From the IMG/VR virus record IMGVR_UViG_3300031787_000722, positions 1 through 26,332 of that record: a DNA stretch of 26,332 nucleotides; one strand, written 5' to 3'. Origin of the DNA: a virus. The notes under the pieces are model-generated. The model was not told where the DNA came from, made no database searches, and saw only the letters and a list, made by a program, of their open reading frames with translations. The position numbers and the translations under genes were made by a program. How positions within the stretch are numbered: position 1 is the first letter of the stretch; each line of letters starts with the position of its first letter. Below, one piece after another: positions 2,977-17,202 of the stretch.

Positions 2977-3002
2977 GTTACGTTATGTATACATATGGTA
3001 AC
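2977..3002. repeat. Imperfect 26-bp palindrome with perfect 12-bp core
   Basis: The core TATGTATACATA (2984-2995) is a perfect palindrome, flanked by GTTAC on the left and GTAAC on the right. Only the two positions on each side between core and outer arms do not pair. AAATGTTAC occurs at 2973-2981 and again at 3014-3022. The 76-bp gap separates the convergent ends of the SprT-like gene and the small membrane protein gene. The pattern fits a protein-binding site more than a rho-independent terminator, as it is AT-rich and has no U-tract. Confidence 0.5.
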
Positions 3003-3027
3003 GATTATGTATCAAATGTTACACATT

Positions 3028-3050
3028 ATGCGGTGATTCATGCGGTGATT
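3028..3050. repeat. Tandem 11-bp direct repeat
   Basis: ATGCGGTGATT occurs twice with a 12-bp period (3028-3038 and 3040-3050). The second copy reaches the stop codon of the minus-strand 48-aa gene. No function is evident. Next to the palindrome it adds to the regulatory or origin-like appearance of this gap. Confidence 0.5.
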
Positions 3051-3195
3051 ATTTAGTGGCCAAAATAAAAAGCCCTATGTTGCTGAACCCATATCCGCTG
3101 TAAACCACCGCCATAGGTACATTGCCTTTGAGTCCTTGCTCTACAGCTATGTAGCCATAAATCAGACCTGTAACGATAATCAGCCAGGCACTCAT
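3049..3195 (-). CDS. Small phage membrane protein (48 aa)
   Basis: This short gene reads MSAWLIIVTG... and ends ...GLFILATK. It has two hydrophobic segments, about residues 2-18 and 28-45, separated by a polar turn containing EQGLKGN, so it should be a two-pass inner-membrane protein. Its ATG overlaps the stop of the preceding gene by ATGA (3195-3192), strong support for translation. The pattern of a short helix, E/DQxxKGN, then PMAVVYxGY and a second helix resembles small uncharacterised proteins I recall from other phages. Function unknown. It is the last gene of the minus-strand early operon. Confidence 0.7.
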   Translation of the reverse strand: MSAWLIIVTGLIYGYIAVEQGLKGNVPMAVVYSGYGFSNIGLFILATK

Positions 3196-3434
3196 TTCTC
3201 TTGTGCCTTTCTTAGTATTGCTCTAGCAAATTCAATCCAGCCTTCATTGGAATCAATAAGATTTGTAACTGCATTGCCTATTTCTATTATTTCCTCATCT
3301 GTTAGTGTCTTTGCTGGATAGGTGTAGAGTGGGATAGTATGTTGCTCATCTTGTTCTCTACGCACTACGGCTTTAATAATATGGTCTGCATCCAAAACAT
3401 CTTGTGATGTCCACGCTACTGGTTCATTGTTCAT
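3192..3434 (-). CDS. Hypothetical phage protein (80 aa)
   Basis: An 80-aa soluble protein with no clear enzymatic motif. The N-terminal half contains PVAW and, after a charged linker, HTIPLYTYP, a combination seen in small uncharacterised phage proteins. The C-terminal half (TDEEIIEIGNAV... to the end) is predicted helical. Its start overlaps the stop of the 22-codon mini-gene upstream and its end overlaps the 48-aa membrane protein gene, so all three should be co-translated. I cannot assign a function. Confidence 0.75.
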   Translation of the reverse strand: MNNEPVAWTSQDVLDADHIIKAVVRREQDEQHTIPLYTYPAKTLTDEEIIEIGNAVTNLIDSNEGWIEFARAILRKAQEK

Positions 3435-3499
3435 TTATTGGCTTTCCTCAACGCAATATGCTTTTGTAGGATGTGCCAGAACTCAGACTTGATCGGCAT
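3431..3499 (-). CDS. Possible 22-aa coupled mini-gene
   Basis: The ORF begins MPIKSEFWHI and is 22 codons long. It has a good GGGAG six bases before its ATG, starts directly after the upstream stop and ends in an ATGA overlap with the 80-aa gene. These signals suggest it is translated, either as a real micro-protein or as a coupling device carrying ribosomes to the next gene. The sequence is amphipathic and basic. Too short to recognise. Confidence 0.4.
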   Translation of the reverse strand: MPIKSEFWHILQKHIALRKANK

Positions 3500-3500
3500 C

Positions 3501-3746
3501 TTAGTCTCCCGCCCAGCGGACACCAGAGCGCCCAAGCCTAGTATTAATACTGAACTCCATATCATTGGCTAGTCTGCACAGCTTTTCATTATCAGACTCT
3601 TCATCGTCTAATGGAATAAAGCCAGCAAATGGAACTGGCTCTGTATTCGCACAATGGTGGATCTCATCAATGGGCAACCGCTCTCCGCAATGCTCACAAC
3701 TATTACGCATCGCTTCTTCTCTATCTTCAGTCGTAAACGTGGTCAT
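3501..3746 (-). CDS. Small Cys/His protein, first gene after the operator
   Basis: An 81-aa protein. The ATG at 3746 is preferred because GAGGAG sits six bases upstream; an in-frame GTG one codon earlier would be too close. Residues 17-32 contain C-x2-C, then H-H-C, which may bind zinc (C17, C20, H30 or H31, C32). The rest is acidic and shows no known domain. It heads a short block of tiny genes (81, 22, 80 and 48 aa) preceded by its own promoter-like sequence and the palindrome at 3765-3780. Function unknown; a small regulatory or host-interaction protein is a guess. Confidence 0.75.
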   Translation of the reverse strand: MTTFTTEDREEAMRNSCEHCGERLPIDEIHHCANTEPVPFAGFIPLDDEESDNEKLCRLANDMEFSINTRLGRSGVRWAGD

Positions 3747-3764
3747 CACAATCTCCTCAGTTAA

Positions 3765-3780
3765 ATAGCGATATCGCTAT
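3765..3780. promoter_or_regulatory. Palindromic operator candidate, copy A
   Basis: A perfect 16-bp palindrome, ATAGCGATATCGCTAT, lies just before the ribosome site of the gene starting at 3746. The 16-nt TAGCGATATCGCTATT on the minus strand here (3779-3764) is identical to plus-strand 7641-7656 before the serine recombinase. Upstream on the minus strand a TTTACT and AAGAAT with 17 bp between them could be a promoter, putting the palindrome near +8 to +23. It is most likely a repressor site. A recombinase site is the alternative. Confidence 0.6.
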
Positions 3781-3826
3781 AAACGAGATTCTTTCCTAAA
3801 AAAATAGAAAAGTAAAGGGGTTGTTG

Positions 3827-4249
3827 TTATTTTATTTCTACGTCTTCAATATCGGGTGGCTTGATATTGATGCCGATAACCGATGGCTTATCTGAATCCT
3901 CTGGGCTATCAAGCAATCCAGAGGCTTTGGCTAGTAGGCGCAACACTCCAACCTTATCGTACAGCTCTAACTCTAGATTACCATCCTTATTAACCTTAAT
4001 ACTGCGGATGGCTTGCAGAGCGTGTTCTGGAATATCCTTAGATGCCTTGACTTGGATGTTGCCTTGGTCATCCCACTCCATAATATCCGTAATCTTGGTG
4101 TTGGCCATACAGAGTAGGCTATAAGCCACCGCCTCCTTGTTCTCCATAATGGTAGCGGAGCGCTCTAACCTCTTCTGTATAGACCGAATCCCACCCCAAT
4201 TCTGCATGGAGGGGATCTGCGTACTTAGATTTGACTTAACTCTAGCCAT
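3827..4249 (-). CDS. Terminase small subunit-like protein
   Basis: A 140-aa protein. Residues 50-115 (TDIMEWDDQGNIQVKAS..., then a helical stretch with LYDKVGVLRLLAKASGLL) match the C-terminal half of terminase small subunits as I know them: a W-D/G turn, a beta hairpin and a final D-K-x-x-A/V-L-x-L-L helix. The usual N-terminal HTH for packaging-site recognition is not obvious; residues 1-45 are short and basic. It could be a divergent or shortened TerS that recognises DNA together with TerL (44-1603). It starts by ATGA overlap with the SSB-like gene and is the last gene before the internal operator. Moderate certainty. Confidence 0.55.
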   Translation of the reverse strand: MARVKSNLSTQIPSMQNWGGIRSIQKRLERSATIMENKEAVAYSLLCMANTKITDIMEWDDQGNIQVKASKDIPEHALQAIRSIKVNKDGNLELELYDKVGVLRLLAKASGLLDSPEDSDKPSVIGINIKPPDIEDVEIK

Positions 4250-4500
4250 CAGAATGGAATATCGCTATCTGACTTTGGCATCTCATCGTTGCCACGAGGG
4301 GTAAAACCAGCTTGCTTGGGCTTACCGATCTTACCGGCTAGGTACTTCTTGCCTGTCTTAGCCTGTTTCTCATACGCATTGAACCAATACTCGATGCCAT
4401 CAGCTAGCTTGATGGATCCTGTCCAATCCGCATCTGTTTCTCCACGCTTTCTGTCGTTAACGAATAGCGTAAAGCTACCTTCTTTCATTTCATATTTCAT
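4249..4500 (-). CDS. SSB-like / conserved phage protein with acidic tail
   Basis: An 83-aa protein preceded by GAGGAG with good spacing. It reads as a compact beta domain (GSFTLFVND..., DWTGSIKL, EYWFNAYEK, GKKYLAGKIGKP) followed by a flexible linker and the end DSDIPF. That C-terminus is very like the DDDIPF tail of single-stranded DNA-binding proteins, used to dock replication and recombination partners. This suggests an SSB-like or SSB-mimic role, though the beta domain is shorter than a standard OB fold and the homology is not certain. It is coupled by ATGA to the TerS-like gene downstream. Confidence 0.6.
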   Translation of the reverse strand: MKYEMKEGSFTLFVNDRKRGETDADWTGSIKLADGIEYWFNAYEKQAKTGKKYLAGKIGKPKQAGFTPRGNDEMPKSDSDIPF

Positions 4501-4514
4501 TTATTGCTCCTCAC

Positions 4515-4685
4515 TTATGGTTTAAATTTACTTTCTTCAATTGCCTCTACTACGTTTGCTGACTCCGACAGTCTCTGAGACTCCACTATCATTGCATGAA
4601 TAACTGCTTGTAGGGAGAAACCCTGTCTCAGTAAGCCAAGACTACAACTGTGCAACTCTCGTTTCAACTTCTCTTGCTCTTCCAT
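4515..4685 (-). CDS. Small helical hypothetical protein (56 aa)
   Basis: A 56-codon gene starting MEEQEKLKRE. GAGGAG lies seven bases before the ATG, which follows directly on the stop of a 14-codon mini-ORF (TAA-ATG). The product is predicted to be mostly alpha-helical and charged, with no cysteine motif or membrane segment. It sits 14 bp before the SSB-like gene in the same transcript. I recognise no family. Confidence 0.6.
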   Translation of the reverse strand: MEEQEKLKRELHSCSLGLLRQGFSLQAVIHAMIVESQRLSESANVVEAIEESKFKP

Positions 4686-4730
4686 TTACTCGCTCCTCTC
4701 GTAAAAGTAATTGTCTGCGACTAATTCCAT
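4686..4730 (-). other. 14-codon mini-ORF with consensus Shine-Dalgarno
   Basis: AAGGAGG (minus strand of 4735-4741) is the most canonical ribosome site in the window. It precedes an ATG that opens only 14 codons (MELVADNYFYERSE) before a stop touching the next gene's ATG. It may be a leader peptide or a ribosome-loading device for the 56-aa gene. Expression is inferred. Confidence 0.35.
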
Positions 4731-4739
4731 GTTGCCTCC

Positions 4740-4922
4740 TTAAAAAAGTGGGGAAAAATTGAGTGGTACACCCCGCCCATAGTGGCAAGGGTGGGGGGAG
4801 AGGTATGCCACTCGCTGGCAGACCGCCTCTGGCCAAGCGCAGAGGGCATCTTGCTTTCTGTATACACACCCACCTCTGCCTGTGCCGTATGCATACCACC
4901 GATTGGGTACGTTACAAGCCAT
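4740..4922 (-). CDS. Doubtful 60-aa Cys/Trp/Tyr-rich ORF in a GC-rich stretch
   Basis: An open frame of 60 codons (MACNVPNRWYAYGTGRGGC...) begins inside the last codons of the replication-type gene and ends at the consensus ribosome site for the mini-ORF. It has five cysteines and many aromatic residues but no clear ribosome site. The stretch is visibly more GC-rich than its neighbours and contains small inverted repeats, such as TGCCA/TGGCA at 4815-4829. It may be a real small protein, or untranslated structured RNA between two blocks of the operon. I cannot decide. Confidence 0.3.
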   Translation of the reverse strand: MACNVPNRWYAYGTGRGGCVYRKQDALCAWPEAVCQRVAYLSPHPCHYGRGVPLNFSPLF

Positions 4923-5631
4923 GGCTGTAGTCAATGATGGAGGCTGGTCGCTCTGGTCTGGCTCTCAACCACAGCTCCAGGTCATGTGCGAACTGCTCAT
5001 TGGTTAAACCTATCGATTCCGCAACCTCGATAGCCTTCATGTCTAGTTCATTTATTGTTTTCTTGTCTTTATATATTTTTCCATATAAGAGACTAACTAT
5101 CTCCAACTTGCTGTTATAAGCCAATATCTCTTCATCATTGCTCTCAACCACTCGCTTGCTATCCACATATTCCCCAAGTGTTTTCACAGCCTTAGCGCTC
5201 GTTTTAGACCCCTTCTTAGCCATCTCTCTCTCCTCTTTCAAAATCATGTATGGACTTCTTCCATCCTCAGTATTCAATGCCAACGCATCAGCCAATGAGA
5301 TATCTTCGTTATAAACAATCCTCATGGTTGATGTGTGGCTCATTCGTGCGCCCTTGGTTAGCCGATCAACGTAGTTCTTCTCTCTTAACTTCGTCATCTG
5401 GGCGGTAATGGTTCTGCGACTGACTCCCAGATCCTTAGCCAATCTCTCTTGACCAACCCAAGTAATCCCGCTCCTGTTCGCATAGGCACACACCATGCAA
5501 AGAACTCTGAGCGCCCCAAGACTCAGGCTCTTATCCATCACAGCTCGCAATGGCACTATCGCTATCTGCCTTCGATCTTGTGGCTTTGGTTTTAACCTAA
5601 TCTTAGGTTTCTTTGGGATATCAAAATTCAT
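4912..5631 (-). CDS. Winged-helix replication initiator-type protein
   Basis: A 239-aa protein. Residues 36-92 form a clear winged helix: a helical segment (LGALRVLCMVCAYAN), WVGQERLAKDLGVSRRTITAQMTKL as HTH, and a wing with a basic end. This is the layout of the N-terminal domain of phage replication initiators and similar plasmid or phage regulators. The C-terminal half (150-239) is helical and ends RARPERPASIIDY, without helicase motifs. It could bind the phage origin and recruit host helicase; transcription regulation is the alternative. TGAGG lies about 10 bases before the ATG. It is the largest gene of the early operon. Confidence 0.7.
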   Translation of the reverse strand: MNFDIPKKPKIRLKPKPQDRRQIAIVPLRAVMDKSLSLGALRVLCMVCAYANRSGITWVGQERLAKDLGVSRRTITAQMTKLREKNYVDRLTKGARMSHTSTMRIVYNEDISLADALALNTEDGRSPYMILKEEREMAKKGSKTSAKAVKTLGEYVDSKRVVESNDEEILAYNSKLEIVSLLYGKIYKDKKTINELDMKAIEVAESIGLTNEQFAHDLELWLRARPERPASIIDYSHGL

Positions 5632-5643
5632 TTGAATAGAACC

Positions 5644-5847
5644 TCACCCGCTTATATAAGCGAGATATCTCTTTCGAGAGTGTCTATCGTTTATCGCCAT
5701 GCTTAGGCTATTCGCCATCACAATGCTAGGCCCGATCTCTTCGATGGTCATCCCTTGTGATTCAGCTGCGTTTATCTTGGTCTGGCAACACTCCATTCCA
5801 AAGGGCTGGGTTATGGCCCCGAGTTGTCTTTTTAGCAGATTAGCCAT
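5644..5847 (-). CDS. Hypothetical protein (67 aa)
   Basis: A 67-aa protein beginning MANLLKRQLGAITQPFGMECC. Its start overlaps the stop of the zinc-ribbon gene by eight bases and it ends 12 bp before the replication-type gene, so it is probably part of the operon. A motif TIEEIGPSIVMANSL (34-48) could be a short HTH-like helix pair. The C-terminus is basic (NDRHSRKRYL). No family recognised. Confidence 0.6.
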   Translation of the reverse strand: MANLLKRQLGAITQPFGMECCQTKINAAESQGMTIEEIGPSIVMANSLSMAINDRHSRKRYLAYISG

Positions 5848-6019
5848 GAGTTTGTAAAGGATTATCTTTCAATTCAAATTCACCGAGTTCTACTGTCCAC
5901 CACGAGCAATGACACTCCTTGCAGACCCTACGTCTTCTGATCCAGTTCTTAGTCTCATGCGCCCTCGTCTCAGCTACCTTAATCTCAAAGCTGTCACAGC
6001 CATCATTCACACAAATCAT
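5840..6019 (-). CDS. NrdR-like zinc-ribbon protein (59 aa)
   Basis: This short gene reads MICVNDGCDS..., then ETRAHETKNWIRRRRVCKEC and a terminal WTVEL segment. Two cysteine pairs, C3/C8 and C33/C36, bracket an ETR...IRRRR stretch. This is strikingly like the zinc ribbon of the regulator NrdR, where two CxxC knuckles surround a DSR...IRRRR segment, but without its ATP-cone domain. That suggests a small DNA- or RNA-binding zinc ribbon. It starts by ATGA overlap with the preceding gene and overlaps the following one by eight bases. Role inferred only; a transcription modifier is plausible. Confidence 0.65.
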   Translation of the reverse strand: MICVNDGCDSFEIKVAETRAHETKNWIRRRRVCKECHCSWWTVELGEFELKDNPLQTHG

Positions 6020-6330
6020 TGCTCTTGCTTTCTCTTCCAGATATCTAACATGGCTGCGTACAACTTAGCATAGCCAGCCTCGCCACGCACCCTTGCCACT
6101 TCCTTGAGGTACAGTTGCCGAGTTCGCTTGGATCTAAACTTTCGAAAGACCCATTTGGCCTCACAGTACACCCTAAACTCGTCTGAATAGGATCCAACCG
6201 CTCTGCCATTCGGCAGATGAACCAGCCTTGATGTTGGGTGAACCTTACGACAAGCGAAACAGATGGGTCGTAATACATTTATTTGCTCTCCCTCTCTGTC
6301 TTCCTTCGGTAACAATCCTTGCACATCCAC
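6016..6330 (-). CDS. Cys-motif phage protein with YCEA..RG C-terminal segment; start uncertain
   Basis: The certain part runs from about 6284 to the stop at 6016. It holds C-x2-C (ICFAC) followed by KVH, then NGRAV, and a helical C-terminus with VYCEAKWVF...R..YL..V...RG, a pattern seen in small uncharacterised phage proteins. The start is a problem. The ATG next to the upstream stop (6278) is in another frame. The in-frame ATG at 6396 would overlap the upstream zinc gene by 118 bp. The GTG at 6330 is a compromise, with GGGAAGAG nearby. A non-standard start (ATA near 6282) or a frameshift is also possible. It ends by ATGA overlap with the NrdR-like gene. Confidence 0.65.
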   Translation of the reverse strand: MDVQGLLPKEDREGEQINVLRPICFACRKVHPTSRLVHLPNGRAVGSYSDEFRVYCEAKWVFRKFRSKRTRQLYLKEVARVRGEAGYAKLYAAMLDIWKRKQEQ

Positions 6331-6473
6331 CGCCTGACTCTTCCCTTTGCGCTTACTTTCCAATTGCCACCTTCTATATGTACGCTGTATTGACAATTAC
6401 TGCACCAGCGCTTGCCAGTAATACTGGACTCAGCCTGTACAGCCTTTGTGTATATATCTTTATCGTGACTCAT
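6279..6473 (-). CDS. Small zinc-finger protein (64 aa)
   Basis: A 64-aa basic protein with two CxxC knuckles, C24/C27 (CSNC) and C51/C54 (CKDC), separated by 23 residues ending VRRWM. This spacing is typical of a single four-cysteine zinc ribbon. The start overlaps the stop of the acetyltransferase gene by ATGA. It is one of three consecutive Cys-rich products here. Such proteins in phages often bind DNA or host transcription factors, but nothing in the sequence fixes the target. Confidence 0.75.
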   Translation of the reverse strand: MSHDKDIYTKAVQAESSITGKRWCSNCQYSVHIEGGNWKVSAKGRVRRWMCKDCYRRKTERESK

Positions 6474-7012
6474 ATGGCAATTACCACATCATTCTTTGGA
6501 ACAATTAAACCAGAGCTGGTTTGAAATAAACCATAACTTTGATATTGATATAAATTAACAACTCTTTTGCTGGTTTGTTTCCAGGTATTTTTATAACTAA
6601 TACCAAACCTTTCCCCAAACTTAGTCCATCCCATCTGCTGCCAAAAGAAGTTGCTGGCCAAGTCATTCGCACAGCCACAAGCAAAGTCTTGTATGCCACG
6701 CAAATTACCATGTGATATCGCAGCTGAGAGCAGCGCTTTGCCACGCTCTAAAAGCCTGGCATCAGACTGTATTGCTATCTGGTTGCACTTTGCAACCTTG
6801 CCATAAGAAAACAGCACAAACCCAACCGGTGTATTGTTTTCTTCGCAAATGAAAATCTTATCGTTACAAGTTGTACTCCAGCGTTTGCCTGTCTTGTGGC
6901 CTGTAATGGCCGCTGTATAAGCTGGCTTTGGAATAAACCCCAAAGATAAAGATTCTTTCTTTGCCAAGTCAACTATGTATGGCACGTCTTCAAGAGTTGC
7001 TGAACGAATCAT
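6470..7012 (-). CDS. GNAT-family N-acetyltransferase
   Basis: A 180-aa protein with the GNAT layout. MIRSATLEDVPYIVDLAKKE is the beta1-alpha1 opening, FICEENNTPVGFVLFSYG (54-71) the beta2-beta3 hairpin, and LLERGKALLSAAISHG (87-102) the acetyl-CoA-binding loop and helix. CANDLASNFFWQQMGW (114-129) is the final conserved N...F(Y)..xGW segment. It would transfer an acetyl group from acetyl-CoA to an amine; the acceptor is unknown. A C-terminal extension of about 40 residues is less conserved. It is coupled by ATGA to RusA before it and to a zinc-finger gene after it, so it belongs to the early DNA-metabolism operon. Confidence 0.85.
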   Translation of the reverse strand: MIRSATLEDVPYIVDLAKKESLSLGFIPKPAYTAAITGHKTGKRWSTTCNDKIFICEENNTPVGFVLFSYGKVAKCNQIAIQSDARLLERGKALLSAAISHGNLRGIQDFACGCANDLASNFFWQQMGWTKFGERFGISYKNTWKQTSKRVVNLYQYQSYGLFQTSSGLIVPKNDVVIAI

Positions 7013-7362
7013 TTAATCTCTTCAATCATTACTTTGATAGAGCCACCCGGCACAATGTGTGAGCCACGATAGATCGACAGCTCATCGATCTGTGAGTCAT
7101 CATCAAACAGGCCAGCATCTTGCAAGCTGTCTAACACGCTCTTGATGCGGTTATCGATATCGAATGCTCGCTTATCTCGTGGCCATACAACCATGCTGAC
7201 AGACAGTCTCTTGTTGCCCATCTTTGGGAAGTCTCCGCCAGAGATGTACTCAGCCACAGCTTGCTTGTACTCTCGCCCAGCCTTACTCATGTAGGTAGCA
7301 TGAGCTCCCCTACGATAGTAAGTGTTGACCGATGGCGGGAACGGCAACTCTAGGACAATCAC
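7009..7362 (-). CDS. rusA: RusA-family Holliday junction resolvase
   Basis: A 117-aa nuclease that cuts four-way DNA junctions as a dimer. The RusA signature is complete: the N-terminal PFPPSVNTYYR, then acidic residues in D68-x-D70-N71 and D78, and DDDSQID at 87-93, which supply the metal-binding aspartates. It starts at GTG 7362, overlapping the stop of the RHH gene by GTGA. This start is supported by the coupling and by the conserved start of the protein. It probably resolves branched DNA from replication or from YqaJ/ERF recombination before packaging. Confidence 0.93.
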   Translation of the reverse strand: MIVLELPFPPSVNTYYRRGAHATYMSKAGREYKQAVAEYISGGDFPKMGNKRLSVSMVVWPRDKRAFDIDNRIKSVLDSLQDAGLFDDDSQIDELSIYRGSHIVPGGSIKVMIEEIK

Positions 7363-7532
7363 GCAAGCATCTTGTTTAGACGTTGCGATAGGTCTCCATT
7401 CTTCGACAGAGAAGACCGCAGTTCATCATTAATGATTACAGCGATGGGCTTATTGCGCTGTTGGGCAGTCTGTTCTAACAAGGTTCTAACATCTGGGCGC
7501 AAGCGCACTAGGAATGGCTTTAATTCGGTCAT
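7359..7532 (-). CDS. Ribbon-helix-helix (Arc/CopG-like) DNA-binding protein
   Basis: A 57-aa protein starting MTELKPFLVRLRPDVRTLLE. The pattern is a short beta strand (KPFLVRL, 5-11), a helix starting RPDVRTLLEQTAQQ, a turn at RNKP, and a second helix AVIINDELRSSL. This is the fold of dimeric RHH repressors, in which the strand pair reads the DNA groove. AAGG lies six bases before the ATG, and the stop overlaps the RusA GTG. It is divergent from the serine recombinase, with a perfect palindrome between them, and RHH dimers usually bind such sites. Hence it is the best candidate for the phage's local repressor. Binding is inferred. Confidence 0.75.
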   Translation of the reverse strand: MTELKPFLVRLRPDVRTLLEQTAQQRNKPIAVIINDELRSSLSKNGDLSQRLNKMLA

Positions 7533-7681
7533 TGTTTGCCTTATTTGGTTGAGATATCTGATTGTAGACTAAATATAGCGTAATAAGATTAGGGTAAACA
7601 CCTACTATTAAAACTAGATATAGTTTGGTATATTCATTCCTAGCGATATCGCTATTAACCACCGAGACACAGGAGTTAACT
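7533..7681. promoter_or_regulatory. Divergent regulatory region between RHH and recombinase genes
   Basis: This AT-rich gap of 149 bp has no gene. On the plus strand TAAACA (7595-7600) and TATAGT (7619-7624) could form a promoter with an 18-bp spacer, and TATATT (7629-7634) is an alternative -10. On the minus strand TATATT with an upstream TTTACC is a weaker candidate for the RHH gene. AGGAG (7671-7675) is the recombinase ribosome site. The palindrome at 7641-7654 lies between promoter and ribosome site. Confidence 0.5.
7641..7656. promoter_or_regulatory. Palindromic operator candidate, copy B
   Basis: TAGCGATATCGCTA is a perfect 14-bp palindrome, and with the next two bases matches copy A (3779-3764, minus strand) over 16 bases. 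It lies about 10 bp downstream of a likely start point for the recombinase transcript. In both copies the site is followed by TTAAC-like sequence and the gene's ribosome site, so the whole leader arrangement is shared. Confidence 0.6.
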
Positions 7682-8332
7682 ATGTTTGTAACCTACTACA
7701 GAGTATCAACACAACGTCAAGGCCAATCAGGTCTTGGCTTAGAGGCACAGCGTTCTGCCGTACAGGCTTACCTTGCTGGCAAAGAAATCATTGCAGAGTT
7801 TACTGAGGTTGAGTCTGGCCGTAAGAACAATCGCCCACAGCTGGCAGCAGCTCTTGCATTGGCTAAGAAACAGAAAGCCACACTCGTTATTGCCAAGCTG
7901 GATCGTCTTGCTCGTAATGTGCATTTCATCTCTGGCTTACTTGAGTCTAACGTGCAGTTCGTAGCAGCTGATATGCCAGAGGCAGACCGCACATTCCTAC
8001 AGATGGCTGCTGTGTTTGCTGAGTGGGAGGCTCGCAAAATATCTGAGCGTACTAAGCTGGCTCTTGCAGAGGCAAAACTGCGTGGCACAAAATTAGGCTC
8101 ACCATCCCCACACATTGGATCAAAGGCTGGCCTAAAGGCTATCAACGATAGATGCAATGTTTATTTAGAAAACATCTCACCAATTTTGCAAGATATCGTT
8201 GGTGACGTAGGCTTTAATTTAAGAGCCATTGCTGCTAGGTTGCAAAGACGTGGTATCAAAACCGCTAAAGGTTTAGATGTATGGCATCCCGCCCAAGTAG
8301 GAAAACTTTTGAGAAAGGTTCAATATGCTTGA
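7682..8332 (+). CDS. Small serine recombinase (resolvase/invertase family)
   Basis: A 216-aa site-specific recombinase. The catalytic serine is S9 in YYRVSTQRQ, followed by GLGLEAQ, VESGRKNNRPQL, the conserved AKLDRLARN (71-79) and ERTKLALAEAKLRG (122-135), the E-helix region. The C-terminus (178-213, RAIAARLQRRGIKTAKG...W) is the HTH that binds DNA. The ATG at 7682 has AGGAG in front; an upstream in-frame extension would run through the palindrome and is rejected. It cuts and rejoins DNA through a phosphoserine link. It could be an integrase, a plasmid-style resolvase or an invertase. No tyrosine integrase is seen in the window. Confidence 0.93.
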   Translation: MFVTYYRVSTQRQGQSGLGLEAQRSAVQAYLAGKEIIAEFTEVESGRKNNRPQLAAALALAKKQKATLVIAKLDRLARNVHFISGLLESNVQFVAADMPEADRTFLQMAAVFAEWEARKISERTKLALAEAKLRGTKLGSPSPHIGSKAGLKAINDRCNVYLENISPILQDIVGDVGFNLRAIAARLQRRGIKTAKGLDVWHPAQVGKLLRKVQYA

Positions 8333-8504
8333 TTTAATCACCACCATTCTGGCCTTGGTTTATATCGTAGGCAGTCTGCTTGTAATCACTATGCTTGTAC
8401 TGGGTGCATACATAGTAGTGCAGAACACCCAGTTCTATGCAAGATGGCAACGTAAGCGCAGAGAGCGCCTCGCTGAAAAATTTATGGAGAGTCTAAAAAA
8501 ATGA
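8325..8504 (+). CDS. Small single-pass membrane protein (59 aa)
   Basis: The gene starts MLDLITTILALVYIVGSLLV, eight bases before the recombinase stop, with AAAGG at a good distance. A hydrophobic stretch covers residues 4-32, then a basic tail (RWQRKRRERLAEKF), so it should sit in the inner membrane with the positive tail in the cytoplasm. No family recognised. Position suggests co-expression with the recombinase. Confidence 0.65.
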   Translation: MLDLITTILALVYIVGSLLVITMLVLGAYIVVQNTQFYARWQRKRRERLAEKFMESLKK

Positions 8505-8626
8505 AAGCATGGAACCAACACAATCAATCTTCCAAGGACTTGTACAAGTCTGAGGACACAGTATTTGATCGGATCATCGCCACAATCTCGGTCATTGCAT
8601 TTGTTTTAATCGTGGCACTTTCATAA
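8501..8626 (+). CDS. Small tail-anchored membrane protein (41 aa)
   Basis: A 41-aa protein beginning MKAWNQHNQSSKDLYKSEDT and ending in a hydrophobic helix (about 24-41). Its ATG overlaps the stop of the preceding gene by ATGA. The shape is a polar head with a C-terminal membrane anchor. Function unknown. With the 59-aa gene it makes a membrane-protein pair that could be studied as one unit. Confidence 0.55.
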   Translation: MKAWNQHNQSSKDLYKSEDTVFDRIIATISVIAFVLIVALS

Positions 8627-8634
8627 GGAGAACT

Positions 8635-8808
8635 ATGTCAACCATATACGACATCAATAAGCATTATGTGCCATCGCAAAAGACAGATGTGATGGCCACA
8701 TTTATCAAGCATGGATTCCAACCCCCATCCGAGTGCAGTAAGCATCAAAAGAAATGGGAAATCTACCGCAACCTTTTATCAAGGAACGAAAAACGTGAGC
8801 AAAAATGA
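8635..8808 (+). CDS. Small hypothetical protein (57 aa)
   Basis: AAGGAG precedes the ATG at 8635. The product (MSTIYDINKHYVPSQKTDVM...) is polar and basic, with one cysteine, and ends in a charged helix NEKREQK. It overlaps the start of the HTH gene (GTG at 8795) by 14 bases. No family recognised. A DNA-associated role is possible from its charge and place. Confidence 0.6.
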   Translation: MSTIYDINKHYVPSQKTDVMATFIKHGFQPPSECSKHQKKWEIYRNLLSRNEKREQK

Positions 8809-9040
8809 TACGCAACTTCAAACAATACTGGCCCATCTCAAGCAAAAGAAAGCTCGTGGTATTACTTCTTGGGATGCTATTAGCACCTATGGTATTACTC
8901 GCCTGGCACACTACATACACCTACTTAGAGCAAGCGGTTATCGAATTGCTGACCAGTACGAGCATGAGCCAGACAACCGAACCCACAAGTGGAAACGCTA
9001 CTGGCTTACAAGTTCACCAAAAGCTGTAGCCAAAAAATAA
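8795..9040 (+). CDS. Phage helix-turn-helix protein
   Basis: An 81-aa protein starting at GTG 8795 with AAGGA upstream. The longer frame from 8711 overlaps the previous gene and adds residues that do not look coding. Residues 8-50 (QTILAHLKQKKARGITSWDAISTYGITRLAHYIHLLRASGYRI, shown in parts) follow the small winged HTH domain common in phages: L..HL, S/TxxxAI..YGIxRLxxxIxxLRxxGY. It sits directly before the exonuclease gene, with a 12-bp gap. Regulation of the recombination genes is plausible. Confidence 0.75.
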   Translation: MSKNDTQLQTILAHLKQKKARGITSWDAISTYGITRLAHYIHLLRASGYRIADQYEHEPDNRTHKWKRYWLTSSPKAVAKK

Positions 9041-15583: not shown

Positions 15584-17202
15584 AATATTACCCACCTTTG
15601 TCCTGATGCAACTGTTACTGAGAATCCGCTAGAGATTGTGATTGGCCCAACTGACAGGCAATTGTTGCCCGATGTCGTTGTAATGTTTTCAGCAATCGTG
15701 GTGCTGTTATAAGCAATTGCTTTAGTAGCAGCTGATCCAAAGTATTGACCACCAGCTACGGCTGACGTTGTAACCGATGTTACTAATCCCTTGCCATTAA
15801 CTGTAACTACAGGAATAGAGCTAGATGAGCCAAAGGTTCCAGTAGTTGAGTTGACTGTGGCTAATGTCAGAGCAGACGATCCAGCAGAGCTAGTCGCATC
15901 ACCAGTAAACGCTGGCAGTCTGGCTGCACCGAGTGTGCCACTAGAGATATTGCTTGCGTTAGTGGTATCAGTTGTTGCCGATGCAACTAATCCAAGGTTT
16001 GTCCTAGCTGTAGAAACAGAGGCTAGATCAGATAAGTTGTTTGCTGAAGAAAGAAAGCCTGTGCCAGATACATAGGCAGCTACCCAAGCAGAGCCTGTAT
16101 ATACTCGCATCTCACCAGCGACAGAGTTAAAGTATAGAGCGCCACCAACTAGAGCGTTGCCGTCATTGTCTAATGTAGGATTGCTTGTCTTGCTACCGAG
16201 ATATCTATCATCAAAGTTATCGTATGCTGCTAGTGTTGCATCACGAGCTGCCTCGGCTGCGGTCTGTGCGTTACCAGCTGCGGTAGCGGAGTTGGCTGCG
16301 TTGGTTGCGTTGGTTGATGCGTTCTGAATAGCAACAATGTTTGTAGCGTTTGTGTTAACCGCTGCAATGTTTGTAGCTACAGTTGTTACGTTTGCAGATA
16401 CACCGGCTACAGTTGTTACGTTACTAGAGATACCAGCTACTGTAGTCACATTGGCTGATATCCCAGCCACAGTCGATACGCTGGAGGAGACTCCAGCAAC
16501 TGTAGTCACGTTGCCTGAGATGCCAGCAACTGTATTGATGTTGCTTGAGTTGCCAGCAACCGATGTGACGTTAGCGCTAATCCCAGCAACTGTGGTTACG
16601 TTACCCGATATCCCAGCAACTGTATTAATGTTTGAATTATTACCAGCAACTGTGTTAACGCTTGCTATATTTGTAGCAACAGTATTGATGTTTGCTGACT
16701 GAGCTGCGACTGTAGTTACAGAGCCAATGCTTGGGCCAGCCTCTGGGTTACCAGTTGTTGCGTTAAAGGCTAAGACTGTACCAGCACGAGTTGCCTTAGC
16801 TGGCAAGGTCATGTTGATGTCAGTCGGATCTACTACTGGAGCCTTGAGGCCACGCTCTGCGGTCTCGGCTACTTGCTGTGCGTAGATTGTCTGGGAGTCT
16901 AGGTCAGTATTAAGGGTGCTGGCGAACAAGTCACCGCCTGTCGTATAGTCGCTAGTGCGTTGAATTGCTCTTGCGCCAACAATCGTAATATTGCCTGTGC
17001 CAGCGGTTACTAAGGTAATTGATCCTGTGCCATTAGCATTGATGGTTACGCTGTAATCTGTGGTCAGAGTCAGCAATGTACTGCCCCGATATACAGCGAT
17101 ATCGGTATTGGCAAGAATTTCAAACGTAAACGAGTATGGCCCGACACCAGTATTGGTGTAGACCACACGTCTTGCTACGTTAGATATCGCATAATCAGCC
17201 AT
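15580..17202 (-). CDS. T7-type tail fibre with decapeptide-repeat shaft
   Basis: A 540-aa fibre. Residues 1-120 resemble the N-terminal anchor of T7-like tail fibres (NVARRVVYTNTGVGPYSFTF, FEILANTDIAVYRG, VGARAIQRTSDY, LDSQTIYAQQVAETAERGLK), which binds the tail hub. Residues 161-290 are 13 decapeptides of form N-V-T-T-V-A-G-I-S-A, probably a trimeric coiled or beta shaft. Then come an alanine-rich helix (300-327), a beta segment around GSAWVAAYV, and NNLSDLASVSTARTNLGL with ISSGTLGAARLPAFTGD, typical distal fibre repeats. AGGG lies seven bases before the ATG. It is the anchor for the shorter fibres that follow. Confidence 0.9.
   Translation of the reverse strand: MADYAISNVARRVVYTNTGVGPYSFTFEILANTDIAVYRGSTLLTLTTDYSVTINANGTGSITLVTAGTGNITIVGARAIQRTSDYTTGGDLFASTLNTDLDSQTIYAQQVAETAERGLKAPVVDPTDINMTLPAKATRAGTVLAFNATTGNPEAGPSIGSVTTVAAQSANINTVATNIASVNTVAGNNSNINTVAGISGNVTTVAGISANVTSVAGNSSNINTVAGISGNVTTVAGVSSSVSTVAGISANVTTVAGISSNVTTVAGVSANVTTVATNIAAVNTNATNIVAIQNASTNATNAANSATAAGNAQTAAEAARDATLAAYDNFDDRYLGSKTSNPTLDNDGNALVGGALYFNSVAGEMRVYTGSAWVAAYVSGTGFLSSANNLSDLASVSTARTNLGLVASATTDTTNASNISSGTLGAARLPAFTGDATSSAGSSALTLATVNSTTGTFGSSSSIPVVTVNGKGLVTSVTTSAVAGGQYFGSAATKAIAYNSTTIAENITTTSGNNCLSVGPITISSGFSVTVASGQRWVIL
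16333..16722 (-). repeat. 30-bp tandem coding repeats, 13 units
   Basis: The DNA encodes 13 diverged copies of a ten-residue unit ((N/S)-(V/I)-(T/N)-(T/S)-V-A-(G/T)-x-(S/I)-x) in register without insertions. The copies differ mostly at third codon positions and at unit positions 1, 8, 9 and 10. They are in frame and internal to the fibre gene, so copy number can change shaft length. Confidence 0.85.

Follow-up and report, generated by a model that had tools for sequence, protein, structure and literature searches.

A conserved palindrome as a candidate repressor operator at two putative promoters of an uncultured phage

In this study, a 26,332-nucleotide stretch of viral DNA (IMG/VR record IMGVR_UViG_3300031787_000722, positions 1 to 26,332; the whole stretch is called the window below) was analysed for a short palindrome, O (AGCGATATCGCT), which occurs at site A, between the TerS gene and the gene of an 81-amino-acid (aa) Cys protein, and at site B, in front of a serine recombinase gene. 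On a modest balance of the sequence evidence, we believe that O is an operator at two phage promoters for one phage-encoded repressor, and that the small ribbon-helix-helix (RHH) protein encoded next to site B is the most likely binder. The presence of O, its position, its near-invariance, its restriction to two places and the RHH gene next to site B were observed in the genomes examined. A phage repressor with two operators is already a known kind of control; what is unusual here is that it would be joined by NrdR-like boxes, a coupled second promoter and an RNA hairpin. Within the limited literature searched, we know of no report of an operator, NrdR-like boxes and a hairpin combined in this way.

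Two copies of O at putative promoters

3765..3780, no strand: site A, candidate operator O; perfect 16-bp palindrome ATAGCGATATCGCTAT, with the 12-bp core at 3767-3778
7641..7654, no strand: site B, candidate operator O; perfect 14-bp palindrome TAGCGATATCGCTA, with the 12-bp core at 7642-7653
3788..3816, minus strand: putative site-A promoter, TTTACT (3816-3811), 17 nt, AAGAAT (3793-3788), assigned by eye
7629..7634, plus strand: putative -10 TATATT of the early rightward promoter, assigned by eye; the O core starts 7 nt past it
3501..3746, minus strand: 81-aa Cys protein, first gene after site A, ATG at 3746; its match to NinF is weak and below the cut-off
7359..7532, minus strand: Arc-like RHH protein of 57 aa; match to the phrog_582 Arc-like repressor, E 0.0028

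The core common to both sites reads as a perfect palindrome. A preliminary description of this DNA had reported two identical 16-mers, and both were recovered: TAGCGATATCGCTATT is exact at 3779-3764 on the minus strand and at 7641-7656 on the plus strand. Its gene context also proved correct (Cys protein, serine recombinase, Arc-like protein, RusA, replication-type protein and Terminase_2). The inverted orientation that it ascribed to the pair is meaningless, because with a palindromic core the orientation is an arbitrary choice, and sites A and B are equally an 18/19 direct repeat (3766-3784 and 7641-7659, family D6). With up to 3 mismatches allowed and palindromic sites counted on both strands, TAGCGATATCGCTATT gave 7 strand matches in the window against 0.22 expected from 100 shuffles, none of which reached 7. 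The search for extra copies that the preliminary description had proposed revealed no exact 12-base core elsewhere in the 26,332 bases. At 17095-17106 (site 17092-17109), within a 540-aa reading frame, there is a core with one mismatch, AGCGATATCGGT, which is listed too in three related records (G001, G002 and G009). Among the 14-mer matches listed from the viral collection many were unrelated and were set aside; in 90 such loci there was at most one gene of this family and no match to the profile of either the RHH or the winged-helix protein.

The two sites share one geometry. At site A, the O core starts 9 nt past the putative -10, and the promoter is similar in close relatives. At site B, the window variant of the rightward promoter has no good -35, and many relatives, belonging to another spacing class, show TTGAC...TAAA-T hexamers. 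A -10 assigned by eye, 7-9 nt and then AGCGATATCGCT were found at both sites even where the promoter sequence differs, and O remains with the promoter whichever gene comes first, including where other genes separate O from the recombinase. A palindrome at the putative controlled promoters, with hexamers assigned by eye, is what would be expected of an operator for an Arc-like repressor. With the start placed 6-7 nt after the -10, O would span about +1 to +13, so that it likely overlaps the transcription start of both putative promoters, a position typical for repression. The promoters, their starts, the repression and the identity of the binder are inferred.

Conservation of O in related phages

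Related loci were fetched by protein queries with the recombinase (80 kept of 352), the Cys protein (30) and the RHH protein (46), many of which overlap; the sites were therefore not chosen by their own motif. Site B was anchored on the RHH gene (>50% identity) together with the leader hairpin that follows O, which gave 112 loci in 46 distinct contexts; the identity filter omitted distant RHH genes, which belong to O-less genomes, and three RHH loci without a leader went uncounted (L254, an incomplete locus, and the O-less L267 and L268). Exact O was present in 44 of the 46 contexts, with a one-base variant in L167 and a two-base variant in L166. Site A was anchored on the end of TerS (54 loci, 21 distinct contexts), and exact O was found downstream of TerS in 14 of the 21. 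The seven contexts without it come from three O-bearing genomes (L151/L265, L163, L171) and four O-less ones (L197, L199, L267, L268), and in all seven, read by eye, a reading frame starts directly after TerS. In L171 (record G006) and in L151 and L163, which belong to its group, small genes follow TerS directly, so that there is no promoter gap.

When 25 records, whose completeness is not established, were searched over their whole length, 13 were found to bear O, 10 of them with exactly two copies and 3 with one (G006, G010, G011), and 12 had none. In the 10 two-copy records, including G026, the coordinates of both places match those of sites A and B. The loci fetched from G010 and G011 showed no TerS. 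The loss of the sites from relatives that keep both genes, which the preliminary description had named as evidence against its proposal, was seen in part: the three records without site A retain the RHH and recombinase genes. Column conservation was computed for 43 contexts of site B and 13 of site A, and most flanking columns were far more variable than the core; the alignment was anchored on the motif, so that the core figures (95-100%) arise largely by construction. Outside the core, one -10 position at site B and several promoter columns at site A were equally constant. From the shuffles, the gene-anchored contexts and the whole-record counts, a chance origin of the O pair was rejected.

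The closest cultured relative found is a phage of a methylotrophic Methylophilales bacterium, MEP301 (MW452941), with a TerL 77% identical. It has a similar layout, with an RHH-like gp52, a resolvase-domain gp04, RusA, SSB and TerS. It differs in that exact O is absent, which places it among the 12 O-less records, and in that the RHH gene is not beside the divergent promoter; instead, a single other palindrome, AACACG-N6-CGTGTT, lies at 34727-34744. In the distant L195, L197, L198 and L199, CGATGTC-N5-GACATCG stands where O would be, with one exact copy per record in the 4 carrying records of 6 searched. Both MEP301 and this group were considered as cases of operator change and set aside, as a single palindrome leaves no A/B pair to compare. 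A TerL search gave three loci in binned contigs of metagenome-assembled genomes, with O in 0 of 3, TerS near TerL in 2 of 3, and no indication of the host.

Candidate binders of O

7590..7604, no strand: P, palindrome-like TAGGGTAAACACCTA, shared by most of a more distant clade
8711..9040, plus strand: winged-helix protein; PF14090 46.2 bits, phrog_4973

If O is an operator for RHH, one phage protein would bind sites A and B and repress both operons together, site B controlling the early rightward promoter and site A the leftward one that lies between the genes of TerS and the 81-aa Cys protein. As the RHH gene starts the leftward early operon, leftward expression (RusA and replication) would stop or postpone expression of the other two units. 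The preliminary description had proposed that both copies are operators for this protein and tie two operons into one switch. The tying of two operons fits what was found, with O placed after putative -10s, nearly invariant and in two places in 10 of the 13 O-bearing records; binding by RHH is a prediction. In 23 of 24 loci RHH is the first leftward gene by our own reading, with short overlapping frames ignored, and in L154 another frame intervenes. Strand residues L8, R10 and R12, which, going by RHH structures, presumably face the DNA, were constant in 7 aligned O-bearing sequences and changed in 10 of 11 O-less ones. When the RHH model was searched with Foldseek, the best hits were Arc chains, at E 0.43 and above, and no PDB match reached E <=0.001; a profile search of PDB sequences returned the CopG family, Arc and AmrZ at E 0.3-0.95 only.

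Several observations weigh against O as an operator read by RHH. Three of the 13 O-bearing records have no site A, and a consensus scan of the window reported no site-A promoter and a different hexamer pair at site B. The RHH gene is also present where O is absent; in L200, L8, R10 and R12 are unchanged though O is missing, and the residue pattern follows descent too. The RHH model (pLDDT, predicted local distance difference test, 72.5) shows two helices with no strand formed. RHH could read P instead, which is also found with diverged RHH. Finally, the winged-helix family tracks O, PF14090 being present in all 10 O-bearing records compared and in 2 of the 11 O-less ones.

This last pattern is what would be expected if O were the operator of the winged-helix protein, a Cro-like autorepressor made from the rightward operon, with RHH reading P, an explanation that we hold to be doubtful. 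The segment ITRLA[HK]YI is common to the 48 distinct winged-helix sequences listed, and P is retained in most of the O-less clade. On the other side, L201 has a one-mismatch O (ACCGATATCGCT) in its promoter and 0 winged-helix profile matches, and its frames between the recombinase and RecE genes look different by eye. This argues mildly against the winged-helix protein; the RHH gene of L201 is off the contig, so that the locus gives RHH no direct favour. In addition, G013 carries PF14090 and lacks O. Within the clade of L201, the promoter contains ACCGCTATCGGT in L194 and L196, and a site of this kind is missing from L193. Between the winged-helix and RHH proteins the phyletic patterns do not decide.

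Binding of O by a regulator of the host, or by a different small phage protein (a 64-aa zinc ribbon, for example), is unlikely. Among the representatives, several small genes co-occur with O, and the region of site B has NrdR-box-like sites that a host protein might read; the 64-aa zinc ribbon, however, is rather variable among O-bearing genomes.

The control region around site B

7568..7579, no strand: Q1, NrdR-box-like ACTAAATATAGC, from pattern scans
7613..7624, no strand: Q2, NrdR-box-like near-palindrome ACTAGATATAGT, from pattern scans
5840..6019, minus strand: NrdR-like zinc ribbon of 59 aa without ATP-cone; PF22811 37.4 bits against a cut-off of 27.2
7655..7679, plus strand: leader hairpin enclosing the Shine-Dalgarno AGGAG (7671-7675), from the fold of the 30-base leader and covariation

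Site B belongs to a larger control region with Q boxes, P and the leader hairpin. Q1 and Q2 lie around P, between RHH and O; in some genomes one Q was scored, and in L169 none reached the cut-off. There are two Q types. For AACTACATATAGTT the best match, with 2 mismatches, is upstream of Escherichia coli nrdH (0 of 300 shuffles as good), and for CACAACATATTGTG it is upstream of E. coli nrdD, also with 2 mismatches (2 of 300 shuffles as good). With type and gene exchanged, the matches were not significant (62 and 85 of 300 shuffles as good), and neither the nrdH nor the nrdD upstream region has a match to O. In the window alone, ACTANATATAGT with 2 mismatches was not above chance, so that the case for the Q boxes rests on position and on relatives.

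The 59-aa zinc ribbon is likely the reader of the Q boxes, judging from its family and from residues that change with the Q type. It passes the cut-off for the N-terminal NrdR zinc ribbon and occurs in all 10 O-bearing records searched and in none of the 11 O-less ones. Only the ribbon matches, and the 59 aa leave no room for the ATP-cone (TIGR00244 24.1 against a cut-off of 124.65). The six distinct ribbon sequences listed from CACAA-type loci have DSR and RWNT, and those listed from ACTA-type loci have ETR and SWW. The Q type changes together with the ribbon residues, which in evolution could be one or few events. We take the D of DSR to equal Asp15 of E. coli NrdR. In an excerpt of one report, Asp15 is described on the DNA-binding surface (PMC12176259).

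The spacing of the boxes is unlike that of NrdR. According to the section available of another report, paired NrdR boxes have 14-17 or 24-27 bp between them (PMC12051234). Where both Q1 and Q2 were scored, their centres are 43-63 bp apart, leaving about 27-47 bp between the 16-bp boxes, so that all but the closest pairs, which just touch its upper end, lie outside the 24-27 bp range; the 15-bp linker of E. coli is not matched either. Across 50 distinct regions scored with hand-made patterns, the O-Q2 centres are 27-30 or 49-51 bp apart and the Q2-P centres 19.5-21.5, 30.5-32.5 or 41.5 bp, the Q2-P distance moving in steps of about one helical turn. Although many of the regions share descent, this suggests helical phasing. 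P (TAGGGTnnnnACCTA) has a half-site resembling that of O (TAGGG/TAGCG), and one protein might read both, a lead only. The P pattern occurs once more inside a gene, at 1072-1086.

After O follows a leader of the form UUAACCACC(G/C)AGANA(C/G)AGGAGUUAA. Of the cells in 35 distinct leaders, 96.8% pair; changes on both sides occur in 3 of the 8 pairs, in 22 cells against 6.7 in shuffles, with slid controls at <=3, and 2 of 5 covariation measures did not exceed the shuffles (128 and 158 of 500). Single-sequence folding was unremarkable, with z about -0.8 to -1.6. Taken by itself, the 30-base leader adopts the proposed fold, but in the best fold of a 50-base stretch of the window the leader has other pairings. 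In some relatives the leader hairpin is present a second time before the recombinase, with a C/G-rich hairpin ahead of that copy. Rfam gave one sub-threshold match in the stretch 3000-9000, located elsewhere.

It is possible, as a tentative proposal, that the early divergent promoter is a combined DNA and RNA switch, in which O couples a second promoter. In such a switch, RHH would act at O and/or P, the ribbon, derived from NrdR and without a nucleotide sensor, would sit at the Q boxes, perhaps together with the dATP-sensing NrdR of the host, and the Shine-Dalgarno hairpin would act on the same operon.

Could O itself act as RNA, as a 5'-terminal stem-loop UAGCG-AUAU-CGCUA stabilising both transcripts? 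We consider this very improbable. All four O-containing stretches that were folded form this stem, which would start the transcript, and the palindrome of the distant group at the O position is longer and hairpin-like. In the gene-anchored contexts, however, conservation of the O loop is as strict as that of the stem, and neither of the two variants present (L166 and L167) is compensatory, in contrast to changes in the hairpin a few bases downstream. The invariant loop thus disfavours an RNA-only role.

O and the serine recombinase

7682..8332, plus strand: serine recombinase (216 aa), resolvase domain PF00239, 98.8 bits; PHROG 'DNA invertase' match

The preliminary description had also proposed that the two copies are crossover sites at which the recombinase flips the intervening segment. 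That O is a crossover or binding site of this protein, flipping the 3.9-kb segment or repressing its own gene, is scarcely credible. The resolvase domain is of the kind found in invertase systems, the window and some relatives have site B directly before the recombinase gene, and small resolvases are known to regulate their own promoters. However, oriented inverted crossover sites were not found, as palindromic sites carry no direction. When loci, O-less ones included, were merged on a shared exact 300-mer into 53 clusters, the gene pairs that an inversion between sites A and B would alter kept a single arrangement: RHH and the recombinase were divergent across site B in 44 of 44 clusters (36 O-bearing), Cys82 and TerS were on the same strand across site A in 7 of 7, and Cys82 and RHH were on the same strand in 4 of 4. 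That TerS and RHH are on one strand in 12 of 12 clusters is uninformative on inversion, since the segment contains both genes. Swapped junctions, with TerS next to the leader of the recombinase or RHH next to Cys82, were seen at 0 of 200 sites that have a leader or a family gene close by, a set that includes overlapping and motif-fetched loci. Only one orientation was seen among the genome clusters, which are assembled consensus sequences that could hide a minority orientation. Furthermore, other genes separate O from the recombinase in many relatives, and three records keep the recombinase with one site only. On the grounds of palindromy, of the single arrangement with its junctions, and of O following the promoter and not the recombinase, crossover sites were rejected.

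Other features of the region

The rightward early operon starts with the recombinase or another small gene, followed by the winged-helix protein, RecE and Erf genes. In many relatives (e.g., L134, L138, L161) differing small genes separate site B from the recombinase, and this variable slot is possibly a point of cassette exchange. A GNAT acetyltransferase gene (6470-7012, minus strand) was in none of the 25 representative loci compared and is perhaps a recent insertion; the near-identical contig L070 aligns across it. A tandem array at 16373-16653 (30-base period, 8 copies) lies inside a long minus-strand frame.

Comparison with known systems and significance

Repressor Arc of phage P22 and its operator offer one likeness, with a small RHH-like phage protein encoded next to promoters that it putatively represses. 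Set against the layout of the Arc operator, O is a compact palindrome of 12-16 bp at presumed starts, at two promoters about 3.9 kb apart, with predicted binding. Compared with NrdR and its boxes, the likeness lies in the ribbon and in the Q types, and the differences are the missing ATP-cone, the spacings and the location of the boxes at phage early promoters. As in serine invertase systems of the Hin/Gin type, a small serine recombinase is encoded nearby; in contrast to them, there are no directional crossover sites and no alternative arrangement was seen.

A term search in the main text of two reports on Methylophilales phages returned neither 'promoter' nor 'repressor'. For the 12-mer of O, a literature search gave one report, on a mussel lectin, which was taken as chance. 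For phage-encoded NrdR, a report found by search lists nrdR among sporulation-linked genes.

With a candidate operator conserved at two promoters, gene control in a set of uncultured phages becomes open to defined tests. The NrdR-like boxes linked to it prompt one to ask whether a phage can read or block the host signal for DNA building blocks. If the combined switch is true, the phage would borrow or block the host regulator of nucleotide supply to time its own replication.

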